Of a DNA stretch of 64,000 bases, positions 19,896 through 39,622 are shown in pieces. The stretch is from Pseudomonadota bacterium (GTDB lineage: Bacteria > Desulfobacterota > Desulfobacteria > Desulfobacterales > RPRI01). The translations under genes were made by a program, and so were the position numbers. How positions within the stretch are numbered: the stretch's first letter is position 1; every line of letters begins with the position of its first letter. The notes beneath the pieces are model-generated. The model was not told the origin of the DNA and ran no database searches. It saw only the letters and a list, made by a program, of their open reading frames with translations. The stretch spans positions 1 to 64,000 of the forward strand of contig JAHITX010000014.1 of assembly GCA_018817425.1 (NCBI GenBank), in the 5' to 3' direction.

Positions 19896-21028
<1,133 letters not shown>

Positions 21029-21083
21029 GCGCAACCGGAAACAGTGTTGGTTTTCTTTTTCCCGATTTCTGCCTGTCCATGGT

Positions 21084-21370: not shown

Positions 21371-21988
21371 TTATAATCCACACTCATTTAATTGGTTGGC
21401 GCATTTTTTGTAGGCGTTCATTAAATCTTCTCTTTCAGGAAAGAAGAACATCACCTCCTGAAGCCTCTTCAAAAGCCCTGAAATATGAAAATGATCCAAT
21501 GCGTTGATACTTTCATTACGGATTTTAGAACCATTTGTCTGATTACACTGATGATAAAAAACACCTTCATTGATCAAAGCAATGGCGCGATCAATTTCAT
21601 GGGTCATCCCTTGGGTGTATTTTGTTTTGAAACATCTTCTTACTTCCTGCATCAACTGATCTTTATCGGATTCACTTAGGGCGGATTGATTCAGCACTTC
21701 GAGATGGGCATAGGCTAAATGACCATGGGGAAAGCTTATCCCTTCTTTGAATAATTTTGGATCTGCTTCAGGCATCAATTGAATGTTCCGCTCATCGTAG
21801 GAATGATAATTATAGTCTCTGGTCAACCTCCTGCAAAAAAGTGGTTTCTCGATTTGAACAAATTTTCTATAAAAGCATAATATGATGCGATTTTACCATT
21901 TGTAAGCGTACGACAAGTTTCCAACGTATCTCCTTGTGAAAGCTCCGCCTCCCTTTTTCATTAGCTGATCAATAATTTTGGATTTCAT
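21371..21988 (-). pseudogene. Interrupted gene of unknown function
   Basis: The ATG at 21988 has AAAGGA eight bases upstream and opens 31 codons (MKSKIIDQLMKKGGGAFTRR...) that stop at 21893. The same frame resumes at once and stays open from about 21826 to 21371 (SFPHGHLAYAHLEVLNQSAL, RDYNYHSYDERN). Between them a shifted frame reads like protein (NGKIASYYAFIENLFKSRNH then FFAGG). The simplest reading is one gene of about 205 codons with two compensating frameshifts. I do not recognise the family. It is the last gene of the radical-SAM operon, next to repeat copy 1. Confidence 0.5.
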
Positions 21989-22028: not shown

Positions 22029-23288
22029 TTAGGCCTCATCCAGCAATTTGTAAAACTCCTTGAATTTTTCCAGATCTATTGTACTGGCCAGATATTTGTC
22101 AACATAGTACTCAGGGGTCTTTGTCATAATTTCACCATGCACGCGGCATATTTGTGGAAAAAAGGATAACACAGTCATCTTTCCTAGGCTGCCATCCGTA
22201 CTCAAAAAATAACCTTTATCCTTGCAAAAATCAGGGTAGATAACAGATGGTGGAGAATTTGTTAATCCGGGATGGTAGTTAAATCCGGTTCCTGACACTT
22301 TAATAAGCAAACCTATATGGGGCGATAAAATGCGTCCCAATTTGACATTGTTATCAGAAAAAACAAATGCATTATCGTCAGGATTTATAATGAACCTGGC
22401 CTGTGAAAATATGTCTATTTTTTCAGTTAAATTTAAAGTTGCGGGGTCAATACACTCAAAGCCCTGCTCCTTTAAAAACAGCATGATGGTCTCCTGAACA
22501 CCCATTGCACGCGTAGCGCCGTGTGTTTTTTCGCCCACGATTCTGAATATCTTTTTTGTAGCGGGTAGCTTTGAACGTCGTGGCCCCACAAAGCGATCTT
22601 CAATCATTTGAATATTTTTAGGGCGTCTTTGAAAGTAATATGAGCGAGGACCATAAAAAGATACCTTATCTGCCGTTAAAAATTCACCTTGTTTAATAGC
22701 TAAAAGATACTCTTTGGGAAACCCGATTGGCTCAAAAAATTCAACCATTCTGTCATAATTCCTACCTTCCGCAACATTTACGTAATTAAAATTCATACCA
22801 TCAAACCAGAACATAGGAAAAAAGCTCTCCCAGAGGTGGTGTCCGTAGCCCCCACTGGGATTTGCCATGGAAAGCAGATTCCCTTTAAAGTGACCTTTAT
22901 AGGGTAAGTTAATATTTTTCTTTATATGCTCAATTGTCAAACACCTTCCATCATTAATTCCAATCAAACTGCCTGTTTCAGCAATCAGGTAACCATCCGG
23001 CGTAATGACCATGCCGCTATTGCCAATAACCATGCCGTTTTCTATGGTCGCGGCATAGGCTTCAGGAAATACCAATTTTGTTGGCCATTCCCCGAAATAC
23101 TCTGCAAGGTCTCTCAACATTCTGGTTTCCTGCGGACGACGAATTGCAGAATCATAGCCCAAACGCTCCATATTAACTGTTTCTTCAGGTAAGTGTTCGT
23201 GCACCTCAACCCCATATTGCCTATGAGTATCCGCTACTATATCTCTGAACCACTTTACTCCAAGTATTGGTTCCCAGTTTTTTGCCAT
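22029..23288 (-). CDS. GT61/DUF563-like glycosyltransferase
   Basis: A 419-residue protein resembling family 61 glycosyltransferases involved in capsule, O-antigen or protein glycosylation. The pattern seen is VSFYGPRSYYFQRRPKN, then KKIFRIVGEKTHGATRAMGV, QGFECIDPATLNLTEKIDIF, and ARFIINPDDNAFVFSDNN, matching the family order of an Arg-rich strand, GFE..DP..L, an A..I strand and an N-terminal-loop motif. No signal peptide is seen, so it is cytoplasmic. AGAGG lies about seven bases before the ATG. It sits at the end of the radical-SAM gene row. Donor and acceptor are unknown. Confidence 0.65.
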   Translation of the reverse strand: MAKNWEPILGVKWFRDIVADTHRQYGVEVHEHLPEETVNMERLGYDSAIRRPQETRMLRDLAEYFGEWPTKLVFPEAYAATIENGMVIGNSGMVITPDGYLIAETGSLIGINDGRCLTIEHIKKNINLPYKGHFKGNLLSMANPSGGYGHHLWESFFPMFWFDGMNFNYVNVAEGRNYDRMVEFFEPIGFPKEYLLAIKQGEFLTADKVSFYGPRSYYFQRRPKNIQMIEDRFVGPRRSKLPATKKIFRIVGEKTHGATRAMGVQETIMLFLKEQGFECIDPATLNLTEKIDIFSQARFIINPDDNAFVFSDNNVKLGRILSPHIGLLIKVSGTGFNYHPGLTNSPPSVIYPDFCKDKGYFLSTDGSLGKMTVLSFFPQICRVHGEIMTKTPEYYVDKYLASTIDLEKFKEFYKLLDEA

Positions 23289-23403: not shown

Positions 23404-24597
23404 TTATAATTGTTCGCCTGCGGGTATTAATTTATCATTTATATAAGAACCAACTCCATTGCAATAACCGCAAATATGCGGTTGGTCATAAGTAGTTGCC
23501 TGTAAAAAGAACTTAACTATATCTATCGGGTTATCTGTTGTTTTAACATAATCAACCCGCTCTTTCCCTGGTGACAGCTCATTTATGCCTCCGGTATATA
23601 CCGAACAAGATGCAGTGCAGGGATATATTTTATCTGCGAACATACATTTATACATCCGCATAGAACAATTCAGATACAGTTCTTCATTTTCTCTTTCAGA
23701 CCTGTTTTTGGGCAGACTCAAATCTCCTATATCATTCCACCTTACCTCTTGTGCTCCTGTTGCGAAGCTGTTGAAAAAGTGCTTTATACCGTATTCATTA
23801 AATAGAGATCTCAAATTATCAACTTTTAAGAATTTTAGAATGTCGGGGTGAACATAATGTGAAATTTGTATTGAACCAATATGCTTTTGAAGGGCTTTAA
23901 GCAGCTTTTCATCCGGCAGTAACGTTCCGTTAGTAACAAACGTTAGTTCGTTATATTTATCCCTGTAATTTTCTGAAATATATTCAATGATTTTATCCAG
24001 CTCAGGGTGTAAAAGTACTTCGCCTGTTGTTAAATGGAATATACCTATGTAATCAATTGCTTTGAATACATTATCAATGTTTTTTCTTACTTCTTTAAAA
24101 GGCATAATATAAGACTTGTATTCATTAAGGTAAGGTACCTGCGCAATGCAATGTTTACATTTTAAAGAACAGACAGTTGTGATAATAAACTCAAGGTTTG
24201 GTAAAACAATTTTGTTTTTTTTGAAATAGCTGTAAGCTGTAAAAAAATCCCTTGAGGTACAAAAGCAGTTTTTATCATATCCCGCTTTTAATAATTCTTT
24301 AGAAATTTCCCGATACTGGGAGTTATTTGGCATTATTATAATTCTTGTGTTTTGTTTATCTTCGTTTATTAACCTCTCTGGAGAGAGAATTTTGTAATCG
24401 AGAAAATCCGTTCCATGTAAATTTTTATTGCTGTCCACAATATATTTTATATTCAAAGCATCAGCATATCTGAGCAAGGGAACAATCATTCGTCCCTTTC
24501 CCCAGAAGATTATTTCTTTTTTTTCAAATTGACTCAGAAATTCATCAGACTTGATTATAAACTCCTGATCATTTTTATATTTGCCGGATAAATTCAT
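23404..24597 (-). CDS. Radical SAM/SPASM protein with N-terminal Rossmann-like domain (subfamily B)
   Basis: Residues 25-115 are a small nucleotide-binding-like domain (KEIIFWGKGRMIVPLLRYAD, KYIVDSNKN, RIIIMPN). The radical SAM core follows with the [4Fe-4S] motif in TTVCSLKCKHCIAQ and the GE motif in TTGEVLLH. The C-terminal part is SPASM-like with further Cys pairs (YKCMFADKIYPCTASCS, HICGYCNG) for auxiliary clusters. It ends PAGEQL, as does the paralogue at 25711. Radical SAM enzymes cleave S-adenosylmethionine to start radical reactions on their substrate; the substrate here is unknown. GGAGG precedes the ATG by six bases. It lies in a row of six such genes. Confidence 0.85.
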   Translation of the reverse strand: MNLSGKYKNDQEFIIKSDEFLSQFEKKEIIFWGKGRMIVPLLRYADALNIKYIVDSNKNLHGTDFLDYKILSPERLINEDKQNTRIIIMPNNSQYREISKELLKAGYDKNCFCTSRDFFTAYSYFKKNKIVLPNLEFIITTVCSLKCKHCIAQVPYLNEYKSYIMPFKEVRKNIDNVFKAIDYIGIFHLTTGEVLLHPELDKIIEYISENYRDKYNELTFVTNGTLLPDEKLLKALQKHIGSIQISHYVHPDILKFLKVDNLRSLFNEYGIKHFFNSFATGAQEVRWNDIGDLSLPKNRSERENEELYLNCSMRMYKCMFADKIYPCTASCSVYTGGINELSPGKERVDYVKTTDNPIDIVKFFLQATTYDQPHICGYCNGVGSYINDKLIPAGEQL

Positions 24598-24671
24598 AGC
24601 TTACCTCCATTTGACAGGATTATTTTAAAATGTAATTAATGTGTGTTCCAGAACACCATCCAGATCATTTA

Positions 24672-25700
24672 CTAAGAATATATCTCTTTCAATCGATTTA
24701 TGTGATCATCAAGTATATCTTCGGGAAATGGTCGACATTGCACAACAGAGCAAGTCTCACAGGCAACGCCTTTATAGTTTTTACTGCCATCCAGCATCTT
24801 TTGCTGTACCTGCCTTATTATTTTACCATTCCATATATCGAAAAAACTTTCTTTCTTAATATTCCCTATGCCTATCATTGTTTCATTAGAACAGGGAACA
24901 ACCCTTCCGTCAGGGCATACTGTAACTAAATGATAGGGCTGAGGACATATGTTTATATCCGGCAAACTAAAGCCTAACGCATTATAGTTAGGTGTCTTAT
25001 CCAACCATTTTGAATAATCCAGTTTCTGAACATTCGGGACAACCTGTTCAATCGCATAAGAATCACAATAATCTTTAAAAAGATCAATAAAGTGTTTTTT
25101 GTCACTTTCATCATCCAGTGCAACGTCCATAGTTTTTACATAAACATTCAGGTTCTTGTTTTTTCGCTCTTTTTCCTGGTAAAAATATTGCACATTACGA
25201 ACGATAGAATCAAAATCAACCTTTCTTCTGCAAATCTCCTCATACTTTTTATTTGAAAGTCCATAAATGGAAATCCTTAATCTTTCCAATCCTGCATCAA
25301 TCAAGTTCTTTGACATCTCAGGGGTGAGTAATGTGCCATTTGTAATTAACTCCAGCTTATCAGACACTTTTTTATCTGCGGCATAGCGAACAAACTCGAC
25401 GATATTTTTATTAAGTAAAGATTCTCCGGCTCCGCAGAAACGCAGCATTTTAATTTTCTCCGGCATTTCAGCCAATTCATCTATAAGTTTTTTAAAAACA
25501 GAAAGCTCCATAAATGTCTCAGAACTCAATTTAGGCCGTATGTTTTTGCCCAGACCATAATGACAAAAAGTGCAGGCAAGGTTGCATACATATGTATCAA
25601 AGATTTGAACAACTAACGGGGCTTCTAGTGGTAATACGTCGGCAAGCCTAACACGCCTTCCTGACGGAGCCTGCTTTTTTGATATATTTTCAGAACTCAT
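24672..25700 (-). CDS. Radical SAM/SPASM protein (subfamily A)
   Basis: 342 residues beginning with the shared subfamily-A segment RRVRLADVLPLEAPL, then the cluster motif YVCNLACTFCHYG and the GE motif (AGESLLN, with Ser where most have Pro). The tail is a SPASM domain: INICPQPYHLVTVCPDG, VVPCSNETMIGIGN, DIWNG and VACETCSVVQC, giving the Cys set for auxiliary iron-sulfur clusters. It is clearly paralogous to the proteins at 29290, 30318 and 31315. GAGG stands seven bases before the ATG. Such proteins modify peptides or, in surface-polysaccharide loci, unidentified substrates; no precursor peptide is visible nearby. Confidence 0.9.
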   Translation of the reverse strand: MSSENISKKQAPSGRRVRLADVLPLEAPLVVQIFDTYVCNLACTFCHYGLGKNIRPKLSSETFMELSVFKKLIDELAEMPEKIKMLRFCGAGESLLNKNIVEFVRYAADKKVSDKLELITNGTLLTPEMSKNLIDAGLERLRISIYGLSNKKYEEICRRKVDFDSIVRNVQYFYQEKERKNKNLNVYVKTMDVALDDESDKKHFIDLFKDYCDSYAIEQVVPNVQKLDYSKWLDKTPNYNALGFSLPDINICPQPYHLVTVCPDGRVVPCSNETMIGIGNIKKESFFDIWNGKIIRQVQQKMLDGSKNYKGVACETCSVVQCRPFPEDILDDHINRLKEIYS

Positions 25701-25710
25701 GATTTTACCT

Positions 25711-27018
25711 CTATTTATATCTATTGTTTACGTTCGGGACGGGCAATTGTATCCCTGCAGGAACCGGTTTAGGATCAAAAGCTAATTCACAGTAACGACA
25801 AGCATCTATAAATGGTAAATGTTCAAATTTTTCGAGAACTGGACCAAGGTTACCGTTATTGTGACTGTGAATATCTATACATTCGTGCGAATATTCTTTA
25901 ATTTTTCCCAATTGAATACCCGCATAATGATGTGGGCAAAGATACAGCTTCCCTTTATAGGCACGGTGACAATTTTTTAAGAAACAGCGGTAAAATGCTT
26001 TTTTGAGATAATCATTTTTCACATCGTGCTTTTTGAAGTCTTTAAAATCAAGCCACTCAAAATTTATTGTAAAAAGAAAAGGAATTCCATGCTCATTTAG
26101 TTTTCTTCTGGTTGCAATAATATTATCAAGCAATTTGCCAGACGTGGTCTTTTCATAATTTGATACCTGAAGCATAAACCGAGTATTCTTCATAATATCA
26201 CATAATCTGTCGGAAGGGATAACTGTGCCATTAGTAAAAGATTTTATATAACCAATATTTTCAATCTCCAGTAATCCTTCTATCAATTCCTCTATGCGCG
26301 GATGCAGAAAAGGTTCTCCGCCGACCAATTCCACAAAATTGAGAAAATATGAAGCATCTGCTATTTTCTTAACATCAGAAAGAATAGATTCTACAGGTGT
26401 AAAGCCTTTATCAATGAGAAGAGGAATTTGTTCGCAGCAATGCTCACACCGCAACGTACATTTTTGGCTGACAATATATCCAAACCAGCCAAAAGATGTA
26501 CTTCGCCTGTCATCTTTAATATCTACATGATTTCCCATTTCTTTCAGGCAGGATGAAGCTACTTTGCAGTGATGACGCTCAAAGCCGCAATTTTCACACT
26601 CGAATATATCGATCGTCTTTTTTTCTTTTGTTCTGGATGAACAAATGGGCATCTTCAATCTTCGATTTAAAGCCCAGCCATCGTGTATTTTTAATTCATG
26701 GTTTCGTTCCAGTACCACTTGTTTTAAAAGTTCAAATTGAGTTTCCCAATTAACTGAAATAATGACCTGGAATTGAGAATCCAGTTTGCTGAAAATGTCA
26801 GGAGGATGGACAACAACCCCATTGATCGATTTTAAGCTTTCATAAGCCCTATCTACATAATATGCTATATCTATATCGTATTCTGAAAGAGTCTTCTGTA
26901 ATTGTTGTCCTAGCACACCTGCTGGGTAGATAATAATCTTTTTGCTTGATAATTGATCGAGAACTTCGTCTATTTCTTTATTGTTGATAGCTTGAGTTTT
27001 ACTTATTTTTGTATTCAC
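25711..27018 (-). CDS. Radical SAM/SPASM protein with N-terminal Rossmann-like domain (subfamily B)
   Basis: Residues 25-115 form a nucleotide-binding-like domain (KKIIIYPAGVLGQQLQKTL, YYVDRAYESLKSINGV, QVIISVN). A small CxxC group (FECENCGFERHHC) precedes the radical SAM core, whose cluster motif is SQKCTLRCEHCCEQ with GGEPFLH as GE motif. The C-terminal Cys set (YRCFLKNCHRAYKGKLYLC, IDACRYCEL) fits a SPASM-like domain, and the end PVPAGIQLP repeats the PAGxQL motif of the gene at 23404. The start is GTG (27018-27016) with AGGGG upstream. Its stop is ten bases before the next gene of the row, so translation is tightly linked. Confidence 0.87.
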   Translation of the reverse strand: MNTKISKTQAINNKEIDEVLDQLSSKKIIIYPAGVLGQQLQKTLSEYDIDIAYYVDRAYESLKSINGVVVHPPDIFSKLDSQFQVIISVNWETQFELLKQVVLERNHELKIHDGWALNRRLKMPICSSRTKEKKTIDIFECENCGFERHHCKVASSCLKEMGNHVDIKDDRRSTSFGWFGYIVSQKCTLRCEHCCEQIPLLIDKGFTPVESILSDVKKIADASYFLNFVELVGGEPFLHPRIEELIEGLLEIENIGYIKSFTNGTVIPSDRLCDIMKNTRFMLQVSNYEKTTSGKLLDNIIATRRKLNEHGIPFLFTINFEWLDFKDFKKHDVKNDYLKKAFYRCFLKNCHRAYKGKLYLCPHHYAGIQLGKIKEYSHECIDIHSHNNGNLGPVLEKFEHLPFIDACRYCELAFDPKPVPAGIQLPVPNVNNRYK

Positions 27019-27103
27019 GCCAACCCCTGTTCAAATTAGTAGTCTAAGAAGATTCAAAAAATAACATGATGGCTTCTTGTAGACCATTTAATTTTTTACT
27101 ATT

Positions 27104-29293
27104 CTATCCCCAAATGGGAATATCCTTATTGAACGAAAATGCGTCATCTGCATAAAATTTATCGGTTATAGAGCTGACAATGCAACACTTATTGGAAAAA
27201 AATATGCCAAAGCTTTCTTCAATAATGTGAGAATCTATTAGAGTTTCTACAGGATTTGGCAGCAGGGTAACGAGATTTTTTATAAACTCACCTATACCAT
27301 AATGTATGCCAATTTTGTCTTTATAGCGTTTTTGATTCATTTTACCTTCAGCCTGTACGAATTTGCCATCTTCTTTGCAATACAGGTACATACCTTCCGG
27401 AGCTGCCAGCACAGATTCAATTATCAGTTTATTTCTCATTACACTGCTTTGATCAGCGGTCTGTATATCGCCTTTTCCTTGGTATAATCCCTGAATATAT
27501 CCACCGATACCGTATGGATTAGAATTACCCATTCGAGCGCAAAAATAGTATCCCTGAAGCTGTCTTCCGATTAAATTACCCAGATAATATTGATTTGTTC
27601 CACTATAATGGGTATCCGCACATACAGTGTTTGATATATCAAGGTTTAAAGAGTCGATATACTGAAGATAAGCCGTTCGTTCCTTAGAAGCTGATTCAAG
27701 AATATCGCGTCTATAGGGTTCAAGATAATTTATGATTCGGCTTTTTTCTGTTTTGGTATTTATCAATAAATCCTTATGGGGATCATCTTTATAAGCTGAT
27801 ATGCCAAATCGAATAAAGGTATATTCCGCGAAAGTACCGGTAAAAGAGAGATCAACTAATTGATTAATATCAGCATCGGAATAAAGTGAGGGAACAGTAA
27901 CAGCCCTGCGAGAGGTCTTGAAATAAATGCCCTTTGCTGTGTTTTTAAGGTTTAATAATTTAGTGAGCAGATTATAGTAACGTAGCAGCAGTAAACCATC
28001 CCGTGCAAAAAACAGAATGTTTTTAATCGATTTATCTCTTGTTATTGAAAGGAGCCAGAAAAGATAACCGGATAATAAGGGCCCGAACGCCACAAATCCT
28101 AATGCCTTGGTATCTGTAAATGTAACTTTTCCCGAAGTGTGGGATAATGCAAAAGGTGAATTGAAAAGGACTTCCATAATCAGCCCCATCATGATTGACT
28201 CCTGCATATTTCTTGCTTGAGAGACTAATGAAGATATTGATGAAGTGCGAAATAAGTCATAGGCCGATCTTACGATTATAGCGTTTATGCCGCATTCCTC
28301 TGCCCTGTTCCCGTCTGATTCAGGATTATCACCGATATGAAGGATCTTTTTGCCTGGAACTTCAGAACAAAATATCCGCCACAATTGACCCGAATTTTTA
28401 TCAGCTCCTTGATTGCAGGAAAGAAAAAGTTTTTTATAGCCTGTAATCTGATTTTCTTTCAGGATCAAAGCAACAACATCCTCTGGCAAGTACATATCTG
28501 ATATAAGATAAACAGATTTCCCTGCTGATAAAGCATAATTATAGAGATCAACAACATCTTTTCTTTGCGTAAGAAATTGTTTTTCAGTTTCTATTTCCAG
28601 ATTACAGATATCATTTTTATACTCAACGGGTAGCCCAAAATCTTTGACCATCCGGTCATATACCTGATTTAATGTAAATGTAAATCCTGTCTTCTGTTGT
28701 AATTGAGCCGCAGCGTATCGTCTGGATCGTGCATAATCAAATGTTTCTCCGTATAAATCATAAACCTTTTGTTCGACTACTAAAAAAATGTCTTCGGGCG
28801 TAAGAACCTTTCTCATAAGCAGGGTATCAAATACATCAAAAGAGATGATATCACTAACCTTTATACTCTTAATAATTTGCTCTTTTGTAAGCTTCCAGTA
28901 TGGATCATTTTCATAGTCAATATCTTCAGTTTCTGGCTTTGAACCATCCTGAAAATATACCGGTATATTATATTTTTCGGTTTGTTCTCTGATACGATTA
29001 TAAATTACTTCCCAATAATTTTCGTTTGAAATAATAATAATTAAATCTGCATACTTTTTTACATCATCTAATGTAATTACCGAAACACCATTTATCTTTA
29101 ACCCTACATTCTCAGGATCCCTGTCTAAAAGCGCGGTAAATAAAAACTCCTTTAAGTATTTAGTTAAAATATATGTATTATTACCTGTTCCATACAGTGC
29201 AATTCTCTTGTTTTTTGCGTGCTGGAAATTAACTAAGAAATTTTCAATAAATGAAATAATTTGTTTATCTTTTAATTTGTTTCCAGTTTTCAT
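27104..29293 (-). CDS. HAD-superfamily protein with N-terminal Rossmann-like domain (COG5610-like)
   Basis: A 729-residue cytoplasmic protein. Residues 20-110 hold the same nucleotide-binding-like domain as two radical SAM neighbours (KRIALYGTGNNTYILTKYLK, ALLDRDPENVG). Residues 145-350 are a HAD domain: ISFDVFDTLL carries the nucleophile Asp, VYLISDMYLP motif II, and KKILHIGDNPESDG motif IV. The C-terminal half (NILFFARDGLLLLRYYN, YFKTSRRAVTVPSL) matches large HAD proteins found in polysaccharide clusters. It may be a phosphatase on a sugar phosphate or a glycosyl-transfer accessory; both are inference. The ATG at 29293 overlaps the stop of the upstream radical SAM gene (ATGA). Confidence 0.75.
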   Translation of the reverse strand: MKTGNKLKDKQIISFIENFLVNFQHAKNKRIALYGTGNNTYILTKYLKEFLFTALLDRDPENVGLKINGVSVITLDDVKKYADLIIIISNENYWEVIYNRIREQTEKYNIPVYFQDGSKPETEDIDYENDPYWKLTKEQIIKSIKVSDIISFDVFDTLLMRKVLTPEDIFLVVEQKVYDLYGETFDYARSRRYAAAQLQQKTGFTFTLNQVYDRMVKDFGLPVEYKNDICNLEIETEKQFLTQRKDVVDLYNYALSAGKSVYLISDMYLPEDVVALILKENQITGYKKLFLSCNQGADKNSGQLWRIFCSEVPGKKILHIGDNPESDGNRAEECGINAIIVRSAYDLFRTSSISSLVSQARNMQESIMMGLIMEVLFNSPFALSHTSGKVTFTDTKALGFVAFGPLLSGYLFWLLSITRDKSIKNILFFARDGLLLLRYYNLLTKLLNLKNTAKGIYFKTSRRAVTVPSLYSDADINQLVDLSFTGTFAEYTFIRFGISAYKDDPHKDLLINTKTEKSRIINYLEPYRRDILESASKERTAYLQYIDSLNLDISNTVCADTHYSGTNQYYLGNLIGRQLQGYYFCARMGNSNPYGIGGYIQGLYQGKGDIQTADQSSVMRNKLIIESVLAAPEGMYLYCKEDGKFVQAEGKMNQKRYKDKIGIHYGIGEFIKNLVTLLPNPVETLIDSHIIEESFGIFFSNKCCIVSSITDKFYADDAFSFNKDIPIWG

Positions 29294-30321
29294 AAACACT
29301 GAACTTTCTTATTGAGGTATTTTCCATTTGCAATAATCCTTTCTTCATAACCATCCAGGACATCTTCTTCAAACATTCCGAATTTATAGGCTTCACATTT
29401 TGAGCAGATATTATTTTTTTGTTTTTTTAACATTGCAAATTGAAATTTTTTCAGATTTTCTCCGTTCCACACATCAAATATGTTTTCTTTTTGTGAATTG
29501 CCACATACAAAGGGTGTTTGCATGCCGCAACACGGAACGATATTGCCATCTGGGTTAATTTGGAGCATATAAAACGGCTGCGGGCAGATCTGTGCATTTT
29601 GCACGGCATTTCCGTTTTGTGTGGTGGCAAGAGGTGTGTTGCTCAGTTTTGTATAGTCAATATTTGGCACTGCCGGAGCAAGGTGTTCTATCGCTATTTT
29701 ATCGCAAATATTGCCAAATATATCGTAGAATTTTTCTCTTTCATTTTCTTCTAATGCACAGTCAATGATTTTGATATAAATTTTGCATTCTTTTTTGTTT
29801 TTATAAAAATATCTGATATTTTCTGTAAATTTATCAAAATTAATATCTACCCTGCAAATCTCTTTGTATTTTTTAGATGATAACCCCTGAATTGAAATTC
29901 TCAGCCAGTCTAATCCTGCTTCTATTAAGTTATCCGACAATTCATTGGTTAAAAGAGACGCATTTGTAACAATGTCGAAAGATTTTGCAACCTTTTTATC
30001 CCTAGCATATTTAACCATTTCTGCAATTTGGGGGTGGAGTAATGGCTCACCTGTGGCCGCAAATCGGAGCATTTTTAACTTTTGAGGGAATTCGGCTAAC
30101 TCATCAATGCATTTTTTGTACAAATCAAAATCCATCATTGATTTGTCGGCAATAAAGCCCCTGCCTTTTTTCGGCAGGGAATGAATGCAGTAATTGCACC
30201 TGAAGTTACACGCATAGGCCGGGAAAATCTGCACCATAAAAGGTGTGTAAAGGGGTATGGCTTCTGCCAGTCTGGTACGTTTGCCGCCTACAGACTGTCC
30301 GTTTATTTGCTCTGCATTCAT
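29290..30321 (-). CDS. Radical SAM/SPASM protein (subfamily A)
   Basis: 343 residues with the subfamily-A opening KRTRLAEAIPLYTPFMVQIF, cluster motif YACNFRCNYCIHS, GE motif TGEPLLHP, and the segment LRISIQGLSSKKYKEICR shared with its paralogues. The SPASM domain is marked by QICPQPFYMLQINPDG, IVPCCGMQTPFVCGN, FDVWNG and NICSKCEA. The ATG overlaps the stop of the upstream paralogue (ATGA) and its own stop overlaps the HAD gene start, so the three are translationally coupled. Substrate unknown. Confidence 0.9.
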   Translation of the reverse strand: MNAEQINGQSVGGKRTRLAEAIPLYTPFMVQIFPAYACNFRCNYCIHSLPKKGRGFIADKSMMDFDLYKKCIDELAEFPQKLKMLRFAATGEPLLHPQIAEMVKYARDKKVAKSFDIVTNASLLTNELSDNLIEAGLDWLRISIQGLSSKKYKEICRVDINFDKFTENIRYFYKNKKECKIYIKIIDCALEENEREKFYDIFGNICDKIAIEHLAPAVPNIDYTKLSNTPLATTQNGNAVQNAQICPQPFYMLQINPDGNIVPCCGMQTPFVCGNSQKENIFDVWNGENLKKFQFAMLKKQKNNICSKCEAYKFGMFEEDVLDGYEERIIANGKYLNKKVQCL

Positions 30322-31322
30322 TCAGGTAATCTTTCTAAGATAATATCTGCGTCTTCATCCAGGACATCTTCCGGTTGAGATACATCGTCAGGGGCGCAAC
30401 AAACCTTGCAATGTGCATTAGTGTAACGTTTTTTTGTTAACTGAAGTCTCCAGAAGTCAAGATGCTTTTCGCTTTGCCATATATCCGTAATGCGGTCAGA
30501 ATTAACATTGCCTAACACGACAGGAACATAAACTGAGTCACATGGCTTTACATCACCATTAGGCAGTATTCCAAGCATGAAAAATGCAAGAGGGCACACC
30601 TTCCTTTTTTCTATTACCCTGCCTTGTCTGTCATAATTTATATCCAGGCTGTCAGTGGCTTTTACTCCGTCATAGGTCTTTTGTACCTTTTCAATGAACA
30701 TCCTGTCTGAGCAACCAGAGAAAAGATTATAGAACTTTTCTTCTTCATCTTTTTCAAGAGCAATATCCAGAATTTTTACAAATAACTTTGTATCTTCTTT
30801 GTTTTTGTAAAAATAATTAATATTGTCCATAAATTTTTTAAAATCTATATTGGTTTTGGATATTTCCTGGTATTTAAAAGAAGATATGCCTTGTATGGAA
30901 ATTTTAACAGCATCTATTCCGCTGGATATTAAGTCATCAGACATACCTTTTGACAAAAGCGAGCCGTTGGTAATAATTTCAACCCTTTCAAATGCCTTGC
31001 TTTCTTTTGCAATTTCAACCATTTTGGCAATGTTTTTGTTAAGAAGAGGCTCGCCATGTCCGGTCAGGGATAGTAGTTTAATTTTACTAGGAAACCGGCT
31101 TAACTGCTCAAAGGCCTTTTTATATGTATCAAGTGTCATGGTCTCTTTTACAAAACCATATCTTTTTTTCATTTCAGATAGTTCAAGTGAATGAGCACAA
31201 TAGATACATTTAAAATTACATACACTTGTTGGGGATAAATAAATGCTAAAAGGGATATTAAGGGGAACAACGTTTGCTAATTTAACCCTGTTAACATCAT
31301 AAATCGGTTTTATTTCAGACAT
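30318..31322 (-). CDS. Radical SAM/SPASM protein (subfamily A)
   Basis: 334 residues. The opening NRVKLANVVPLNIPFSIYLS leads into the cluster motif TSVCNFKCIYCAHS and GE motif GHGEPLLNK. SPASM cysteines are in KVCPLAFFMLGILPNG, VKPCDSVYVPVVLGN and NAHCKVCCAPD, with DIWQSEKH in place of DIWNG. I chose the ATG at 31322, eight bases after GGGAG; a TTG at 31337 is a poorer alternative. The start overlaps the 3' end of the next upstream paralogue, another sign of coupled translation. Confidence 0.9.
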   Translation of the reverse strand: MSEIKPIYDVNRVKLANVVPLNIPFSIYLSPTSVCNFKCIYCAHSLELSEMKKRYGFVKETMTLDTYKKAFEQLSRFPSKIKLLSLTGHGEPLLNKNIAKMVEIAKESKAFERVEIITNGSLLSKGMSDDLISSGIDAVKISIQGISSFKYQEISKTNIDFKKFMDNINYFYKNKEDTKLFVKILDIALEKDEEEKFYNLFSGCSDRMFIEKVQKTYDGVKATDSLDINYDRQGRVIEKRKVCPLAFFMLGILPNGDVKPCDSVYVPVVLGNVNSDRITDIWQSEKHLDFWRLQLTKKRYTNAHCKVCCAPDDVSQPEDVLDEDADIILERLPE

Positions 31323-32358
31323 GCTCATTTCTCCCAAAGATATTTATCAGTAATTCAGGGGTCTTATCATCAAGATATTCAGACTCGTCAGTTATTACAT
31401 TGTAGCAGACGCAAGTTTTACATTCAGGCATTTTATCTTTTTCCAGTTTGAGCATCATCTTTAAAAAAGACATCCTTTTTTTTCCGTTCCATATATCCAA
31501 GATGGAGTTCTTATTTAAATTTCCTACAGAAAAGCCCTTTCTCAGGCCGGGAATTGAACAGGGAAACAGGTCAAGATCACAGCCTACCTGCAAAAAATAG
31601 AAACATTGCCCACAAACTTTTCTATCTGCAGAACACTCTTCTCCATACATGTTTTTAGATGCTGTAACCTGGTCAAGAATTTTATCGTGCTGCTGCTGCA
31701 TCTGAACAATGTGTTCCACATAGATTTTGTCGGCAAAGGGCGAAAATATTTTTAAAAACTCGTCTTTATCTGTGTCCTTTTTAAAAGCAGCATCAATTGC
31801 TTTTATATAAATTTGAGCCTTACCTTTTATTTTGTAAAGATACTTAAGAGTGTCAAGAAACTTGTTTAAATCTATTTTTTTACCGCATGTTTTTTCATAT
31901 TGTTTTGAATTTATGCCCTGAACAGATATGTTGATATTTGTAATGCCTGACTTAATCAATTTTAGGGAGAGCTCATTATTTAACAGGAGTCCGTTTGTTA
32001 TTATTTCCACCCTGTCTGATATTTTACTGTCTGCCGCAATTTTTACAAAATCAGGCAAAAGGGGATTTGCAAGAGGTTCACCGAGGCCGGAAAAAACAAT
32101 TCTCTTAATACTCCCTGAAGGAAATGTCGCCAGTTCACCGATTACCTTTTTATAGTCATCTGAAGGCATGTGCTTTACTTCGTATCCCAGTTTATTGAAT
32201 TCACTGTTTTTATCGTCTCTGGTTGAATGAATGCAGTAATAACACTTAATGTTACATACCCTGGTTTGTTCTATATAGACTGTAAAAGGAGCTGGCAAAG
32301 GAATAATATCTGCCAGGTTCTGTCTGTTTGTATCTACATTTGTTTTTATTTCAGCCAT
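31315..32358 (-). CDS. Radical SAM/SPASM protein (subfamily A)
   Basis: 347 residues, first of the row in transcription order. It has the subfamily opening NRQNLADIIPLPAPFTVYIE, cluster motif TRVCNIKCYYCIHS, GE motif GLGEPLANP, and INISVQGINSKQYEKTCG. The SPASM part has KVCGQCFYFLQVGCDLD, LFPCSIPGLRKGFSVGN, ILDIWNGKKR and ECKTCVCYN. The ATG at 32358 follows AGAGGA by six bases; a GTG at 32373 would add five residues. It starts 14 bases after the methyltransferase gene, so the radical SAM row continues the same transcript. Confidence 0.9.
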   Translation of the reverse strand: MAEIKTNVDTNRQNLADIIPLPAPFTVYIEQTRVCNIKCYYCIHSTRDDKNSEFNKLGYEVKHMPSDDYKKVIGELATFPSGSIKRIVFSGLGEPLANPLLPDFVKIAADSKISDRVEIITNGLLLNNELSLKLIKSGITNINISVQGINSKQYEKTCGKKIDLNKFLDTLKYLYKIKGKAQIYIKAIDAAFKKDTDKDEFLKIFSPFADKIYVEHIVQMQQQHDKILDQVTASKNMYGEECSADRKVCGQCFYFLQVGCDLDLFPCSIPGLRKGFSVGNLNKNSILDIWNGKKRMSFLKMMLKLEKDKMPECKTCVCYNVITDESEYLDDKTPELLINIFGRNEHV

Positions 32359-32372
32359 AAAAAATCCTCTCA

Positions 32373-33566
32373 CTACAACAGATAAACATCACCTTTAAAG
32401 TTGCCTTCAAATAGCAAGCTCTTCAACTTTGAAGAGTATGGGCCTGTTGGTATAACTATGATAGCGGATTTATCCAATTGAAACATAATTTCAGGGGAGT
32501 TTATTTTATAATTTCTGATTGTCCTGGTTTGTTTATATTCATCAGAATCATGGAGGCCTGCAATATTGCATCTGGGTAAAAGGTAAGAAGCCAGCAGATA
32601 TAACATATAGGATGATAATCCCCAAATATATACAGGGCGAGCGCTGTCATAATTTTCCAGAAATTGTTTTATTGGCCCTGGTGTCTTGAACAAATTCCCA
32701 TGCCATTTTTCTGATAATAAAAAGCTTGGCCTTATTTTATGCATAGAACCATTTTTTTTTACAATGCAGTACAAACATTCTTCTTCTGCCTGGTCATGAC
32801 CGTCAAAGGATTTGTTTCCAACTTCAAGGCATTCAAATCCATTAATATTTACAAGGTTTTTAAGCGCCGGTTTATCAAAATAATTAATATGTTCATGGAA
32901 AAAATCATATAGAGGTGCATCTCTATAGGTTGGGTAGCTGGCAGCATCAGGAATTTCGATATAGGCAATGCCGTCAGCATCGAGTATTCTGAAAAGTTCT
33001 GACATGGCCTTTTTCAGGTTAAACACATGCTCAATTGTATGAGTTAAAAATGCCATGCCGCATGATACATCAGGCAGAGGAACATCTGTTGCGGTTCCTG
33101 TGCGAACATCAGCAACAGCAGTTTCCTGCAGTCGATTGATATTTGCATCTAATGAATCAACCCCACACAGATTGGTATAACCTTTTTCTTTAAGAGTTCT
33201 TAAAAGTCCACCCTTGGCACAGCCAATATCAACACTAATTTTACTATCTGGAATATCATATTTTTCAATGAGCTTAATATAGCTCAAAAAACGGTTCTGG
33301 TCTTTTGATGTCTCCCCGCCCATACCCTGGCTTTTTGTTGTATAGTAATAATTGTGTTTTTTATAATATTCATTGTAGTCATATTCAGTAGATGGTGTTT
33401 CATAAAAGACCATTCCGCATTTGTTGCAGGATACAAGTTTTACGTCATTTCTAACAGGGTAGTTGTCATAAATTGCATATTTGATGTCACCGAGCAAAAA
33501 GGCCTTGTTGTTGTTGCAAACAGGGCAAACCCTGGATAACTTAATGGCAGCAGAAGAACTTATCAT
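32373..33566 (-). CDS. SAM-dependent sugar C-methyltransferase-like protein
   Basis: 397 residues with the three-part build of sugar 3-C-methyltransferases (TylC3/NovU type). An N-terminal zinc site (CPVCNNNK and CNKCGMVFYE) is followed by a class I methyltransferase core with the SAM motif VDIGCAKGGLLRTLKEKG and HTIEHVFNLKKAM. A C-terminal Rossmann-like domain (RPVYIWGLSSYMLYLL) closes the protein. Such enzymes methylate C3 of nucleotide-linked 4-keto-6-deoxy sugars, which fits the CDP-4-keto-6-deoxyglucose made by rfbF/rfbG upstream. The ATG overlaps the GT4 stop (ATGA). The exact product is inferred. Confidence 0.8.
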   Translation of the reverse strand: MISSSAAIKLSRVCPVCNNNKAFLLGDIKYAIYDNYPVRNDVKLVSCNKCGMVFYETPSTEYDYNEYYKKHNYYYTTKSQGMGGETSKDQNRFLSYIKLIEKYDIPDSKISVDIGCAKGGLLRTLKEKGYTNLCGVDSLDANINRLQETAVADVRTGTATDVPLPDVSCGMAFLTHTIEHVFNLKKAMSELFRILDADGIAYIEIPDAASYPTYRDAPLYDFFHEHINYFDKPALKNLVNINGFECLEVGNKSFDGHDQAEEECLYCIVKKNGSMHKIRPSFLLSEKWHGNLFKTPGPIKQFLENYDSARPVYIWGLSSYMLYLLASYLLPRCNIAGLHDSDEYKQTRTIRNYKINSPEIMFQLDKSAIIVIPTGPYSSKLKSLLFEGNFKGDVYLL

Positions 33567-34891
33567 TGTATAGTTCCATATTTTTCCAGATACTTTAATT
33601 TTTCATTGTCAAAGAAAGCGCTGTAATGTTTTATGCTTCCCCTTGTATTGCCTTTAAAAATCTGAGGCAGCTGTGTAGCTTTTTCGCTGAGTTCAAGAGG
33701 TACATCATCAGGGTAATACCCAAGTATCTTTTTATAAATGTGGGAGGCATCACACTCCCCAAATGCTAACAGAAACAGTGAAACAGCAAAGTCTGAGCTT
33801 TCAAATTTATTGAATATGCATTTTGATTTTGGACGGGACAAGAGTTCCTGATATATTTCCAGCCAGCTTCTTACCGGTTTGTCTATGGTAAAGTTCTCTT
33901 TTGCATAATTTTTTGACGCGACGGACATTTTTTTTCGCAAATCATCATTACAGTACAGCTTTTGTATCAACTCAATAAATTCTTCTTTGCTGTTTGCGAC
34001 AAACCCTGTAAGGCCATCCTGAACAACATGTTCCTCTGGGCCGCCCGCAAATACAACCTGTGGAATTCCCGCGCTCATTGCCTCTATTAAAACCTGTTCT
34101 CCTGTCCCGTAGTTCTCTCTTTGCAAGGGGTAGGCAAAAATGTCAAATTCAGCTAAATATCCCTTAACATCGGTAACTTTTCCAGTGAATTTGAACTTGT
34201 TAATACAGCCTTTTTCTCTGGCTTCTTCTTCCATACTTATATGAGAATCTCCTCCCACAATTATAAACCGGGCATTCGGAATATCTGCTTTGTTGAACAT
34301 ATTTATAAAATCAGGGTGGATTTTGCAGTAATCAACTGTGCCTATATAGCCGATGTTAAAGGTATTATGTGGAATCGGATCTATTTTATCAAAGTTATTC
34401 AGTCCGCAACATGAAGGAATTGATCGTATATGGCTGCGTTGCCAGTCATTACTTCTTTTTATGATATCTTTTTGTGTAAGGCTAAAATCTGTTGTTGTGA
34501 CAAACATTTCAGGAAAATCAAATATTGAGTCGTTAAATAAATATGGTGCATAATGCCCGTTTACATGGCTCCACATTACAACACGGGCCTTTTTGCCTGA
34601 AAAAGAATATAGCAACTTATATAAAAGCGGGTGGTTCCAGAAATGGATATGGACAATATCTGCGTTTTGCATTTTTTCATGCAGCCAGTTATTGTCAGGC
34701 GATATTATCTCATATATCTTTATTCTGTTAGCATTACTCCAGAATTTGGCTTTTTCATTAGCGTATTCAAGGCTTACAATTTCGTGTTCAAAATCATCCC
34801 TTGTATACAGATTAAAAACAAGTGACATCAGGACACAGCCGACTCCGCCACCAAAATGGGGCGTTATGTGAAGTACCTTTTTTTTATTCAC
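33563..34891 (-). CDS. Family 4 glycosyltransferase
   Basis: A 442-residue GT-B transferase. The N-terminal half starts KKVLHITPHFGGGVG and includes the acceptor-side stretch ADIVHIHFWNHPL. The C-terminal half has NIGYIGTVDY, KFTGKVTDVKGYL, and the donor-binding motif GTGEQVLIEAMSAGIPQVVF, with E-x7-E present (EQVLIEAMSA). An extra tail of about 80 residues follows, rich in charged and aromatic residues. Retaining GT4 enzymes transfer sugars from nucleotide donors; here the CDP-6-deoxy-type sugar made by the genes upstream is the natural guess. The start is GTG with AAGGGA nearby. Confidence 0.85.
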   Translation of the reverse strand: MNKKKVLHITPHFGGGVGCVLMSLVFNLYTRDDFEHEIVSLEYANEKAKFWSNANRIKIYEIISPDNNWLHEKMQNADIVHIHFWNHPLLYKLLYSFSGKKARVVMWSHVNGHYAPYLFNDSIFDFPEMFVTTTDFSLTQKDIIKRSNDWQRSHIRSIPSCCGLNNFDKIDPIPHNTFNIGYIGTVDYCKIHPDFINMFNKADIPNARFIIVGGDSHISMEEEAREKGCINKFKFTGKVTDVKGYLAEFDIFAYPLQRENYGTGEQVLIEAMSAGIPQVVFAGGPEEHVVQDGLTGFVANSKEEFIELIQKLYCNDDLRKKMSVASKNYAKENFTIDKPVRSWLEIYQELLSRPKSKCIFNKFESSDFAVSLFLLAFGECDASHIYKKILGYYPDDVPLELSEKATQLPQIFKGNTRGSIKHYSAFFDNEKLKYLEKYGTIQ

Positions 34892-34914: not shown

Positions 34915-35820
34915 TTAATCATATGACAATGAATTTATAGTGTTTTTTAAACCATCACGTAGCGAATATTTTGAAGTCCAGCCAAGATTTTTCAATCGTG
35001 TGTTATCACCGCATATAAAAGGAGGCTCCCATGCCCTGTAAGATATTGCGCCTGGCTGAATTAAATCATTTTGATTCATCAGTTCCCCTATTGTTTCAAG
35101 TAATTGTCGAATCGACACAGGGGATCCGCTTGAAATATTAAATATTCCGTCAGCCCTTTTTTCTAATAATGTGGAAAAAGCCGAGGCTACATCCGAGACA
35201 TGAATATAGTCGCGTATCTGTTCCCCAGGACTTGATGGAAAGGCCATACTTTCTTTTAATGAATTTATTGCCGCTGGCACCAGTCGTTTTGGATTTTCCT
35301 TTGGTCCGTAGGGATAGAATATCCGTGCCCAGGAAAAGGCAACATCATTTTTTGTTGCTAACTGGCTTCCTGCCAGAAAACATGAAAGCTTGGTTCCAGC
35401 ATAAAGGCTTGCAGGAAGGGTAGGGGTGTCCTCGTTTAGGTATCCAAAGTTGGTATTATATTCGAAACACGTACCTGCCGCAATGATATGCCTGCAACCA
35501 GCCTCGATGAGTGTCTGAAATAGTGTCAGGCTTGATGTTAGTGCCTGGATATTTTTTATTGAATCAAGGTACTTCCCGGGTTCAGCATACCATGCGAGAT
35601 GAATACAGGCTTCCGGCTTAAATTCATTAACAACTTCTTCCAGCATCTGAGTATTTTCCAGAGTAGCGTTGATGACTGTAAAATCATTCTTTAATAATTG
35701 TAAACGGGGCATAGGGTTATCAGGAGTAATCAACGCCACAACCTGATGGCCTCCTGAAAGAAGCTTTTCCATTACATGGGAACCAATAAACCCGGGGGCT
35801 CCTGTTACAAATACTCGCAT
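34915..35820 (-). CDS. NAD-dependent epimerase/reductase (extended SDR) of the CDP-sugar branch
   Basis: A 301-residue extended short-chain dehydrogenase. The NAD-binding motif GAPGFIGSH is at the N-terminus and the catalytic Tyr/Lys in SLYAGTK. VFVTGAPGFIG and the C-terminal GDNTRLKNLGW resemble sugar 4-ketoreductases or epimerases. Following the RfbC-like epimerase, it probably reduces the 4-keto group to finish a CDP-6-deoxyhexose. The ATG at 35820 overlaps the RfbC-like stop by one base; a longer in-frame opening into that gene has no support. Confidence 0.8.
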   Translation of the reverse strand: MRVFVTGAPGFIGSHVMEKLLSGGHQVVALITPDNPMPRLQLLKNDFTVINATLENTQMLEEVVNEFKPEACIHLAWYAEPGKYLDSIKNIQALTSSLTLFQTLIEAGCRHIIAAGTCFEYNTNFGYLNEDTPTLPASLYAGTKLSCFLAGSQLATKNDVAFSWARIFYPYGPKENPKRLVPAAINSLKESMAFPSSPGEQIRDYIHVSDVASAFSTLLEKRADGIFNISSGSPVSIRQLLETIGELMNQNDLIQPGAISYRAWEPPFICGDNTRLKNLGWTSKYSLRDGLKNTINSLSYD

Positions 35821-36353
35821 TATTCGCTTTTCCAATCGGGATGAGATGCATCCTTTTTTGAGATAGTGCTGACAGGAATCGGCCACTTGATACCAAATGC
35901 AGGATCATTCCACCTGAGGCCGTTTTCAGCTTCGGGATGATAAAAGGCTGATACCTGATAAAACACCTCTGTATTATCTTCAAGTGTTTGGTAACCATGA
36001 GCAAAACCTACCGGCACATAGAGCATTTGATGATTAGACGCAGAGAGTTCTGCTCCAAACCATTGCTTAAACGTTGGTGATTCAGGCCGAAGGTCAATGA
36101 TAACATCATAAATAAAGCCGGAAGTGCATCGAACAAGTTTCGCTTCGGAATGCGGGGCTACCTGATAGTGCATACCTCGTAAGGTGCCTTTTTTTCTATT
36201 AAAGGAGATATTGCATTGAAACAGGTCAGGATTTAAGCCATGATCTATAAACTCATGTCTGCAGAATGCCCGTGCAAAAAAACCTCTTTCATCTTTAATA
36301 AGATCAGGTGTTATGATAAAAGCCCCTTTAAGTTTTATTTCTGTAAATTTCAC
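35820..36353 (-). CDS. RfbC/RmlC-like 3,5-epimerase (cupin) acting on a CDP-sugar
   Basis: A 177-residue member of the dTDP-4-dehydrorhamnose 3,5-epimerase family: DERGFFARAF, QCNISFNRKKGTLRGMHYQ with the catalytic His, LVRCTSGFIYDVIIDLRP, and FYQVSAFYHPE...GLRWNDPAFGI near the end. RmlC itself uses dTDP-sugars, but the neighbours rfbF and rfbG make a CDP-4-keto-6-deoxyglucose, so this copy probably epimerises C3 and/or C5 of that compound. It directly abuts rfbG, whose stop codon overlaps the start region. Confidence 0.88.
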   Translation of the reverse strand: MKFTEIKLKGAFIITPDLIKDERGFFARAFCRHEFIDHGLNPDLFQCNISFNRKKGTLRGMHYQVAPHSEAKLVRCTSGFIYDVIIDLRPESPTFKQWFGAELSASNHQMLYVPVGFAHGYQTLEDNTEVFYQVSAFYHPEAENGLRWNDPAFGIKWPIPVSTISKKDASHPDWKSE

Positions 36354-37441: not shown

Positions 37442-37455
37442 GCGCTGTTTTAACC

Positions 37456-38235: not shown

Positions 38236-38429
38236 AACATTATGCCTTCCTTTAGAGTTTGTTCAATTACGACTAAAATTGTTTTGTACCATGTCTACTA
38301 TAGCATTACTTGTATGAGCCACTTTCAAAACGTTTCAGTTTGGTCAAGCTCAAGGCGGGAGAAAATTTCAACCACAGGAATACATTTAGTATTTCGAGGA
38401 TAGCGCTAAAGGTTAGCGCTTATGCTTCA

Positions 38430-38790
38430 CTACGTGTCACTTCGTGTGAAATTTGAGCCCAACGCAGAGATTGGCCAAAATGGGGCGTTTTGTAACTGGC
38501 TCGTATAAGTTTCTTTTAATTTATCCTGCCATGACACTGTGGTGATCATCTGCTCAATCCAGTAATCAATAGCTTGAAATGGTTTGGGTAAGTATTATCT
38601 GCCGGACAGGCTCCGCCCCCTTCGGTTACACCAACTTTTATTGGCGTACCGACTGAAAACATAGTTTTGTCAGCCTTTATAACAGAACTGCTCATCCTGA
38701 AAATTTCCAGCATCAAAGTTATGGGCATCATATTTAAAGATATAAATCGGTATGCCCCACACTAAAAAAACCTGCTTTCACAATTACATA
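38430..38790 (-). pseudogene. Gene remnant with two frameshifts between rfbF and repeat copy 2
   Basis: Three overlapping frames read like consecutive pieces of one protein: GIPIYIFKYDAHNFDAGNFQ, then DKTMFSVGTPIKVGVTEGGG with GACPADNTYP, then PFQAIDYWIEQMITTVSWQD and KLKETYTSQLQ, with a stop at 38432-38430. They can only be joined by two frameshifts, so the gene is broken. I do not recognise the family. The wider interval 38236-39245 has no intact gene. Confidence 0.5.
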
Positions 38791-38827: not shown

Positions 38828-38914
38828 ATTAAGCAATCAATATGCCAAGTTCTTTTAACTGTTAAATATTTTGTGTAATTGAATAATTGGGCTTCATATG
38901 GAGATATCTGCAAG
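38828..38914. repeat. 87-bp direct repeat, copy 2
   Basis: Identical to 20942-21028 and in the same orientation. It marks the other side of the glycan island and carries the same sigma-54 promoter directed towards rfbF. Confidence 0.9.
38832..38848 (-). promoter_or_regulatory. Sigma-54 promoter upstream of the rfbF operon
   Basis: The same TTGGCATATTGATTGCT as in repeat copy 1. Predicted start near 38821. The leader to rfbF would be about 586 nt and runs through a decayed gene, so it may have been separated from its original gene. Confidence 0.7.
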
Positions 38915-39614: not shown

Positions 39615-39622
39615 GGTTAATA

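Follow-up and report, generated by a model that had tools for sequence, protein, structure and literature searches.

Six twitch-type radical-SAM genes in a row within a putative flagellin glycosylation island, candidate tailoring enzymes of flagellar sugars

The stretch of DNA described here (the window) comprises 64,000 nucleotides (nt) of contig JAHITX010000014.1 from a Pseudomonadota bacterium (assembly GCA_018817425.1), and it holds a row of six genes for radical S-adenosylmethionine (SAM) enzymes beside the flagellin gene fliC (Table 1). The row was first noticed in a reading of the sequence alone, and all six open reading frames (ORFs) are indeed present on the minus strand between 23404 and 32373. 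CxxxCxxC radical SAM motifs had been noted in each, and all six proteins exceed the cut-off of PF04055. There are 72 PF04055 matches in the genome (5.12 Mb), of which the row holds six as the densest group, any other 9-kb stretch having three at most. Under uniform placement the expected number of groups with six matches per 9 kb is 1.6e-5, and six radical-SAM genes within 9 kb are beyond chance. Two kinds of proteins are found in the row, here named by the first coordinate of their genes: four of A type (24672, 29290, 30318 and 31315), which also match PF13186 (SPASM), and two of B type (23404 and 25711), which do not. In the order of transcription the row is preceded by genes for RfbF-, RfbG- and RfbC-like proteins, an epimerase/reductase, a GT4-type glycosyltransferase and a methyltransferase, it is interrupted by a HAD-type gene of 731 aa, and it is followed by a GT61-like gene, two sugar-modifying genes, the GT2-TPR gene, fliC and fliD. 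Glycosyltransferase and sugar-nucleotide genes beside fliC are characteristic of flagellin glycosylation islands elsewhere (e.g. Pseudomonas aeruginosa PAO1), and both are found beside fliC in the window.

Table 1. Positions of the row, the island genes and the flagellar neighbours in the window, with the evidence for each assignment.
Feature	Coordinates	Strand	Evidence
FliD, flagellar cap	11784-14861	minus	PF07195 4.2e-41, PF02465 3e-21
Flagellin (fliC)	15100-16533	minus	PF00669 4.8e-34, PF00700 4.6e-25
GT2-TPR glycosyltransferase adjoining fliC	16770-18776	minus	PF00535 1.5e-22 and TPR
GT61-like glycosyltransferase	22029-23288	minus	PF04577 7.4e-5, 23.4 bits, under the cut-off of 27; homologue in L010 (320 bits) above cut-off
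B type: Rossmann-like stretch, radical SAM, twitch, PAGEQL end	23404-24597	minus	PF04055 1.7e-13; member of the profile matching SpeY
A4 twitch radical-SAM enzyme inside A3 clade	24672-25700	minus	PF04055 3.2e-18, PF13186 1.6e-10; 60% identical to L054_9393, pair support 100/100
B type: Rossmann-like stretch, radical SAM, twitch, PAGxQL tail	25711-27018	minus	PF04055 2e-11; SpeY profile match E 7e-16; 50% identical relative in L054
HAD phosphatase / ribose-5-phosphate-transferase-like, cf. CrpP-CriT part of Bcs3	27104-29299	minus	phmmer Bcs3 E 2.5e-16, residues 148-478; TIGR01549 HAD-IA above cut-off; no Pfam match
A3 twitch radical-SAM enzyme, protein modelled	29290-30321	minus	PF04055 1.4e-16, PF13186 7.9e-13; pLDDT 88.3, pTM 0.88; top fold match BtrN Z 23.3 (rmsd 2.6, 237 residues)
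A2 twitch radical-SAM enzyme; TTG 31337, ATGs 31328 and 31322	30318-31337	minus	PF04055 3.7e-18, PF13186 3.2e-11; A2 clade 8 rows, support 100/100
A1 twitch radical-SAM enzyme; GTG 32373, ATG 32358	31315-32373	minus	PF04055 1.6e-18, PF13186 1.1e-8; A1 clade 8 rows, support 100/99
SAM methyltransferase, presumably sugar C-methyltransferase-like	32373-33566	minus	PF13489 2.8e-18
GT4-type glycosyltransferase	33563-34891	minus	PF00534 2.1e-21; homologue in 7/7 triplet loci
NAD-dependent epimerase/reductase; GTG 35886, ATG 35820	34915-35886	minus	PF01370 3.2e-32
RfbC-like sugar 3,5-epimerase	35820-36353	minus	PF00908 1.1e-67
Sugar-nucleotide 4,6-dehydratase, taken to be RfbG (CDP-glucose)	36353-37474	minus	PF16363 3.1e-33
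Nucleotidyltransferase, taken to be RfbF (glucose-1-phosphate cytidylyltransferase)	37456-38235	minus	PF00483 2.5e-22
FlgM, far side of island	39611-39943	plus	PF04316 7e-16

Start and stop codons had been described as overlapping through much of the row. This holds from the methyltransferase gene down to the HAD gene, where the spacings counted from the longest starts are -1, -23, -4 and -10 nt, and not among the last genes of the row, which are spaced by 85, 10, 74 and 115 nt. If the ATG at 32358 is taken as the start of A1, a gap of 14 nt precedes this gene instead of the -1. From the RfbF-like gene to the HAD gene all neighbours overlap save for one 23-nt gap when the longest starts are used, and later starts leave small gaps. 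None of the six proteins reached the cut-off of an NCBIfam family among the best 25 matches per protein, and Rfam and tRNA scans gave no matches. A promoter scan returned 73 sites versus 64.9 (standard deviation 7.1) in shuffled sequences and is not used as evidence.

The four A-type proteins are paralogues, as had been proposed: with 29290 as the reference the other three show 43, 37 and 36% identity, and the shared opening, here R-x-x-L-x4-P-L-x-x-P, is confirmed. The subfamily of four splits into three classes (A1, A2 and A3) and one later duplicate (A4). The C-terminal cysteines of the row had been called SPASM-type. The SPASM two-cluster domain has seven of them, and what both kinds of proteins show instead is the pattern of four that belongs to the one-cluster twitch domain. 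SPASM domains have two auxiliary clusters and twitch domains one, and the auxiliary cluster of the twitch enzyme BtrN has four cysteine ligands (PMC9012708). Among 47 A-type proteins six of the cluster cysteines occur without exception and the seventh in 46; three of the seven belong to the SAM cluster and four are C-terminal. In the numbering of 29290 the CxxxCxxC cysteines C38, C42 and C45 are kept in all 47 proteins, and the auxiliary C246, C264, C306 and C309 in 47, 46, 47 and 47, respectively, while in a narrower alignment all seven are invariant in 19/19 relatives. Searched against solved structures, the profile of the A family matches BtrN best (E 1.2e-23), with the four C-terminal cysteines aligned to the four of BtrN, and the same enzyme is the closest fold match of the A3 model (Table 1).

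The two B-type proteins of the window share 26% identity. The N-terminal Rossmann-like stretch (judged by eye) and the PAGxQL tail ascribed to them were both recovered. Their profile finds the twitch dehydrogenase SpeY as the best match among solved structures (profile positions 151-404 to SpeY 34-285). The alignment spans the radical-SAM core and the four twitch cysteines and continues as far as a PAG-x-Q-like tail in SpeY, and the tail is therefore common to the B type and a solved twitch dehydrogenase. All four C-terminal cysteines are invariant in the five B proteins available (5/5). The structure model, built from an alignment of three rows, has a pLDDT of 42.6. Among 247 genomes sampled in the phylum of the window, B-type matches at an E-value of 1e-30 occur in two, that of the window and G279. 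A Rossmann-like domain common to the B, HAD and methyltransferase proteins was also considered and rejected, as the alignments are too weak for a claim of homology. The nearest solved relatives by profile act on sugar-like substrates.

At present 25 genomes with an A-type profile match above 200 bits can be listed: the genome of the window, two congeners (of 59 genomes), four from a scan of genome contigs, and those from samples of three phyla, with scoring limited to part of the candidates of each genome, namely six besides the window's (345 genomes of its phylum), nine besides the locus genome (398 genomes, phylum of locus L008) and three besides the locus genome (150 genomes, phylum of locus L010). 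The 47 proteins come from 24 of these, as the gene of G805 (216 bits) was lost by the simple ORF caller, a greedy one by which wrong starts may be chosen. Left out were G022 (109 bits), G241, G132, G367, G154 and G375 (158-183 bits) and 22 of the 26 loci of the contig scan (at most 105 bits on rescoring; L011 gave no row). In the tree of the 47 proteins the classes A1 and A2 (Table 1) and A3 (11 rows, support 99/98) can be delineated, and 24672 pairs with L054_9393 within A3. All seven genomes bearing A1 (those of the window, L010, L088, L089, L091, L096 and L098) also hold A2 and A3, and in five of them, that is excluding L089 and L091, the three genes are contiguous in the order A1-A2-A3. 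These triplet genomes span three phylum groups. Elsewhere, L024 combines A2 and A3 with a sister of A1, and L094 has the A1 sister plus another member only. A comparison of gene neighbourhoods had been proposed for the six-gene pattern, and the exact pattern is absent from the other loci read; what recurs there is the A1-A2-A3 triplet, in addition to smaller groupings of B, A and HAD genes.

Because the same pairs of genomes recur across the clades (window and L010 in A1 and A2; L088 and L098 in A1, A2 and A3; L089 and L096 in A2 and A3), the tree suggests that the triplet may have been transferred as a unit. Against this, L089 groups with L091 in A1, the window and L010 do not resolve as a pair in A3, and some forks are modestly supported. 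The L010 contig (genome G400) carries the label Fibrobacter succinogenes, a non-flagellate species, yet 11 flagellin-domain matches are found in that genome, which puts the species label or the bin in doubt. A merely accidental flagellar link, first suspected from this label, was dropped in view of these matches.

A gene of the flagellin family PF00669 lies within 20 kb of an A gene in nine of the 25 genomes (G000, which is the window's, G006, G177, G279, G398, G451, G704, G724 and G768), while 1.41 are expected (P 2.6e-6) under a null of uniform placement with unclipped 20-kb intervals and rounded genome sizes, which ignores operon structure and contig ends. Without the genome of the window the count is 8/24 (P 2.5e-5). 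The cut-off of 20 kb was set after several distances were known. PF00669 matches FlgL-like proteins as well: in G768 the nearest match adjoins a FlgK-like gene (by eye), and a second match lies at 12 kb. G633 is uncounted, its flagellin gene, 8 kb from the A gene, running out of the fetched stretch with only the C-terminal domain visible (L093). Five of the seven triplet genomes have flagellin nearby, and the other two triplets are on short contigs (L010, 16.9 kb; L091, 12.2 kb). The island of L089 is flanked by fliC and by FlaG/FliD, and those of the window and L050 by fliD/fliC at one end and flgM at the opposite end. Each of the nine loci in which a flagellin gene is seen (window, L050, L052, L055, L088, L089, L093, L094 and L096; the FlgL-like match of L098 is excluded) has a homologue of the GT2-TPR protein adjoining it.

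The triplet loci also share companions, counted in the stretches read, which are 12-20 kb long for the loci other than the window. Besides GT4, RfbF is found in all seven, an epimerase/reductase-like gene in six (three of them at 40-43 bits), RfbG, RfbC and FkbM methyltransferases in five each, B12-type radical-SAM homologues in four and RfbH in two. The RfbF homologue of L098 lies beyond the flagellar genes and is cut by the end of the stretch. The B12-binding radical-SAM proteins (PF02310 and PF04055) of other islands are located at L010 12140-13945, L050 8243-9829, L054 10490-12331 and L089 12349-14133, and possibly are sugar C-methylases. In L054 (7199-19998; G279, another family of the phylum) A, B and B12-type genes occur together with a HAD homologue and a further three radical-SAM-like proteins, of which two score under the PF04055 cut-off, and the A gene is 16 kb from flagellin. 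HAD homologues near A and B genes are thus seen in L054, and in L009 as well. The Bcs3 match of the window's HAD protein covers the CrpP phosphatase and the start of CriT, including the RDG stretch. In Bcs3, the capsule polymerase of Haemophilus influenzae type b, CriT transfers ribose-5-phosphate from phosphoribosyl pyrophosphate (PRPP) (PMC10299916). Judged from this match, ribose on the glycan is conceivable.

A direct repeat of 100 nt (95% identical), found in two copies in the whole genome, brackets the island from 21371 to RfbF, with copy 1 at the downstream border (20942-21041) and copy 2 at the upstream border (38828-38927); a congener's island has a partial match (82% over 47 nt) close to its upstream side (G006 C14:27889). 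The repeat may be a trace of the exchange that brought the island in, or may be a duplicated upstream region. An orphan ORF inside the bracketed region (21371-21826, 151 aa) has no Pfam match at 0.001. The Gfo/Idh/MocA oxidoreductase gene at 19896-20855 has 52% guanine plus cytosine (GC) and stands beside an island of 33-42% GC. The stretch 38236-38770 of the window resembles two places in the congener's locus L050 (2560-2822 and 18485-19042), on both strands, and these are probably a dispersed DNA repeat, not genes.

Since both kinds of enzymes most resemble antibiotic-pathway enzymes that act on sugar-like rings, they probably remodel flagellar sugars. With a little better than even confidence we propose that the row consists of twitch-type radical-SAM oxidoreductases tailoring one or more sugars of the flagellin O-glycan. 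The analysis shows which genes are present and how they are conserved, the twitch pattern of cysteines, the fold and the recurrence beside flagellin, and the glycan link is well supported. The sequence-only reading had suggested a glycan, a lipid carrier or flagellin itself as the target of these radical enzymes, and action on flagellar sugars is backed by comparison: the family does lie in deoxysugar islands beside flagellin in several unrelated genomes. As to the chemistry, we infer the sugar substrate, the cytidine diphosphate (CDP) nucleotide, the dehydrogenation, the order of steps and the carrier state (nucleotide-, lipid- or protein-bound). By analogy with BtrN and SpeY dehydrogenation is favoured, and epimerisation or elimination would be possible. 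In the proposed scheme the RfbF-, RfbG- and RfbC-like enzymes and the reductase would make a CDP-6-deoxyhexose, and the GT4, GT61 and GT2-TPR enzymes with the CrpP-CriT-like protein would build the glycan. In A1, A2 and A3 (also in A4 and the B type) the [4Fe-4S] cluster held by CxxxCxxC would cleave SAM, and the 5'-deoxyadenosyl radical would abstract hydrogen from a sugar C-H at a position specific to each enzyme. The substrate radical would then pass an electron to the four-cysteine auxiliary cluster, in line with the proposal for BtrN, and become a keto-sugar that would feed the reductase and the methyltransferase of the island: the keto group could undergo reduction to the other stereochemistry or C-methylation (32373-33566), or could cause a neighbouring group to be lost. 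Editing might also take place on the assembled glycan. To the broader idea of a mobile cassette that crosses phyla, with A1-A2-A3 at its core and SpeY-like and B12-dependent radical enzymes as options, and that edits the flagellin glycan, we give an even chance.

Certain findings weigh against the proposed tailoring by oxidation. Similarity of fold or profile is suggestive of a reaction type and does not prove it. RfbG is missing from two and RfbH from five of the seven triplet stretches read, and the sugar thus varies. DesII, an eliminase, is second to BtrN by Z (21.8) in the fold search and is the best match of 29290 when the single sequence is compared to the PDB (E 2.5e-8; BtrN 8.8e-8). 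The A enzymes could then be redox-neutral and still act on flagellin-glycan sugars, either as epimerases of the NeoN kind or as DesII-like eliminases, yielding rare stereoisomers or deoxysugars; several classes per row would suit several positions, and the clade-specific residues do differ. In radical-SAM epimerases such as NeoN and EpeE, a conserved cysteine is the hydrogen donor. The clades A1, A2 and A3 have no invariant cysteine beyond the seven ligands, which speaks against an epimerase of the NeoN type, even though donors other than cysteine are possible; another A clade (7 rows) has an extra invariant cysteine at 179. The four-cysteine auxiliary pattern aligned to that of BtrN moreover fits net oxidation, and we hold redox-neutral action to be unlikely, while still to be kept in mind.

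Peptide-modifying enzymes and viperins are not far behind in these searches. In the model-based search SuiB (Z 19.9), viperins (19.6) and ChlB (19.4) come next, BlsE is within 19-20 and SkfB is also listed, and the lead over the peptide enzymes is real and not large. With Foldseek, BtrN is first (E 3e-14) and SuiB second, just ahead of DesII. Three of the four A proteins have TIGR04317, a model of protein maturases, as their top NCBIfam match, at 84-94 of the 380 bits required and so far below the cut-off. The target could accordingly be a peptide, either flagellin itself or a hidden precursor, as with SPASM maturases, whose PF13186 domain matches the A type, or by analogy with FliB. The genes lie beside fliC, and FliB is a precedent of a [4Fe-4S] SAM enzyme that modifies flagellin (PMC8598068). 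The A-type proteins, however, have only four invariant C-terminal cysteines, and Pfam reported no RRE/PqqD-type domain in the six row proteins. Not all peptide maturases carry an RRE domain. No precursor peptide had been visible to the sequence-only reading, and the comparison of 352 small ORFs from 16 loci agrees with this: its 18 cross-locus matches are all flgM, csrA or between two congeners, and no shared small ORF emerges as a candidate, which does not exclude one. The family is also found in polysaccharide-like clusters away from flagellin. Peptide modification is in our opinion improbable.

In 16 of the 25 carriers the contig shows no PF00669 gene at 20 kb or less from an A gene, and the A genes of L051, L057 and L095 are placed in surface-polysaccharide-like clusters with no flagellin gene near; flippase- or NeuB-like genes are present in some A clusters (L051 and L057, by eye). 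All 25 carriers do possess PF00669 (12/12 and 13/13), and this gene is common anyway (125/149 in the phylum sample around L008 and 85/148 in the phylum of the window), so the argument rests on proximity and not on presence. The islands might accordingly make some other surface polysaccharide and lie near flagellin only through the clustering of surface-structure genes. Proximity well above the uniform expectation, the GT2-TPR homologues adjoining flagellin and the flagellar genes that flank the islands of the window, L050 and L089 at either end all run counter to this, and such an explanation seems very doubtful. As some A genes do sit in polysaccharide-like clusters away from flagellin, the A family is best described as a glycan family first and often a flagellar one.

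If tailoring of the flagellin glycan by the row is true, radical C-H chemistry would be a recurrent tool of bacterial protein glycosylation, beyond antibiotic sugars. Of the solved relatives recovered, those acting on sugars or cyclitols (BtrN, DesII, SpeY and BlsE) all come from antibiotic pathways, and a conserved set beside flagellin in several phylum groups would bring such reactions into protein glycosylation. The flagella are then predicted to carry keto-, branched or rare sugars, A1, A2, A3 and B are directly testable families, and, with three classes found together, one may ask why three radical steps should be needed jointly.

Among the known systems the A type is closest to BtrN of butirosin biosynthesis (PDB 4M7T) in profile, fold and the four auxiliary cysteines. 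BtrN is a single antibiotic-pathway dehydrogenase of 270 residues acting on 2-deoxy-scyllo-inosamine, whereas A-type proteins are about 340 aa long with the N-terminal RxxLx4PLxxP, come in three co-occurring classes and are often in flagellin islands. The B type is similar to SpeY of the spectinomycin pathway (PDB 7WZV) over the core, twitch cysteines and C-terminal tail, and differs by the added N-terminal Rossmann-like stretch and the setting in a glycan island. The A3 model shares its fold with DesII, which belongs to the nucleotide-sugar pathway of thymidine diphosphate (TDP)-desosamine (PMC11434129). DesII is longer than the A type and deaminates an amino sugar, and the only DegT-type gene seen in the triplet loci is the RfbH homologue (2/7). 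In contrast to SPASM peptide maturases, the A type lacks the cysteines for two clusters, though PF13186 matches, and unlike B12-dependent radical-SAM enzymes none of the six proteins has a Pfam match to the B12-binding domain PF02310. Radical-SAM epimerases differ from A1-A3 by their donor cysteine. FliB shares with the row a [4Fe-4S] SAM enzyme working on flagellin; it transfers methyl groups to lysine, is not part of a glycan-island set and has no characterised domain according to its authors (PMC8598068).

Similar genes have been listed in Campylobacter, and two of them presumably are from Campylobacter fetus, judging from the locus tag. These two are listed as phase-variable radical-SAM genes near methyltransferases (PMC6321876), and a 'radical SAM metalloprotein' is tabulated beside a methyltransferase and a glycosyltransferase in the capsule cluster of Campylobacter jejuni (PMC8743553). 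All are single table entries with no function and no flagellin island given, and are likened here by description only. In the open-access literature no radical-SAM set or enzyme was found described in flagellin glycosylation islands.

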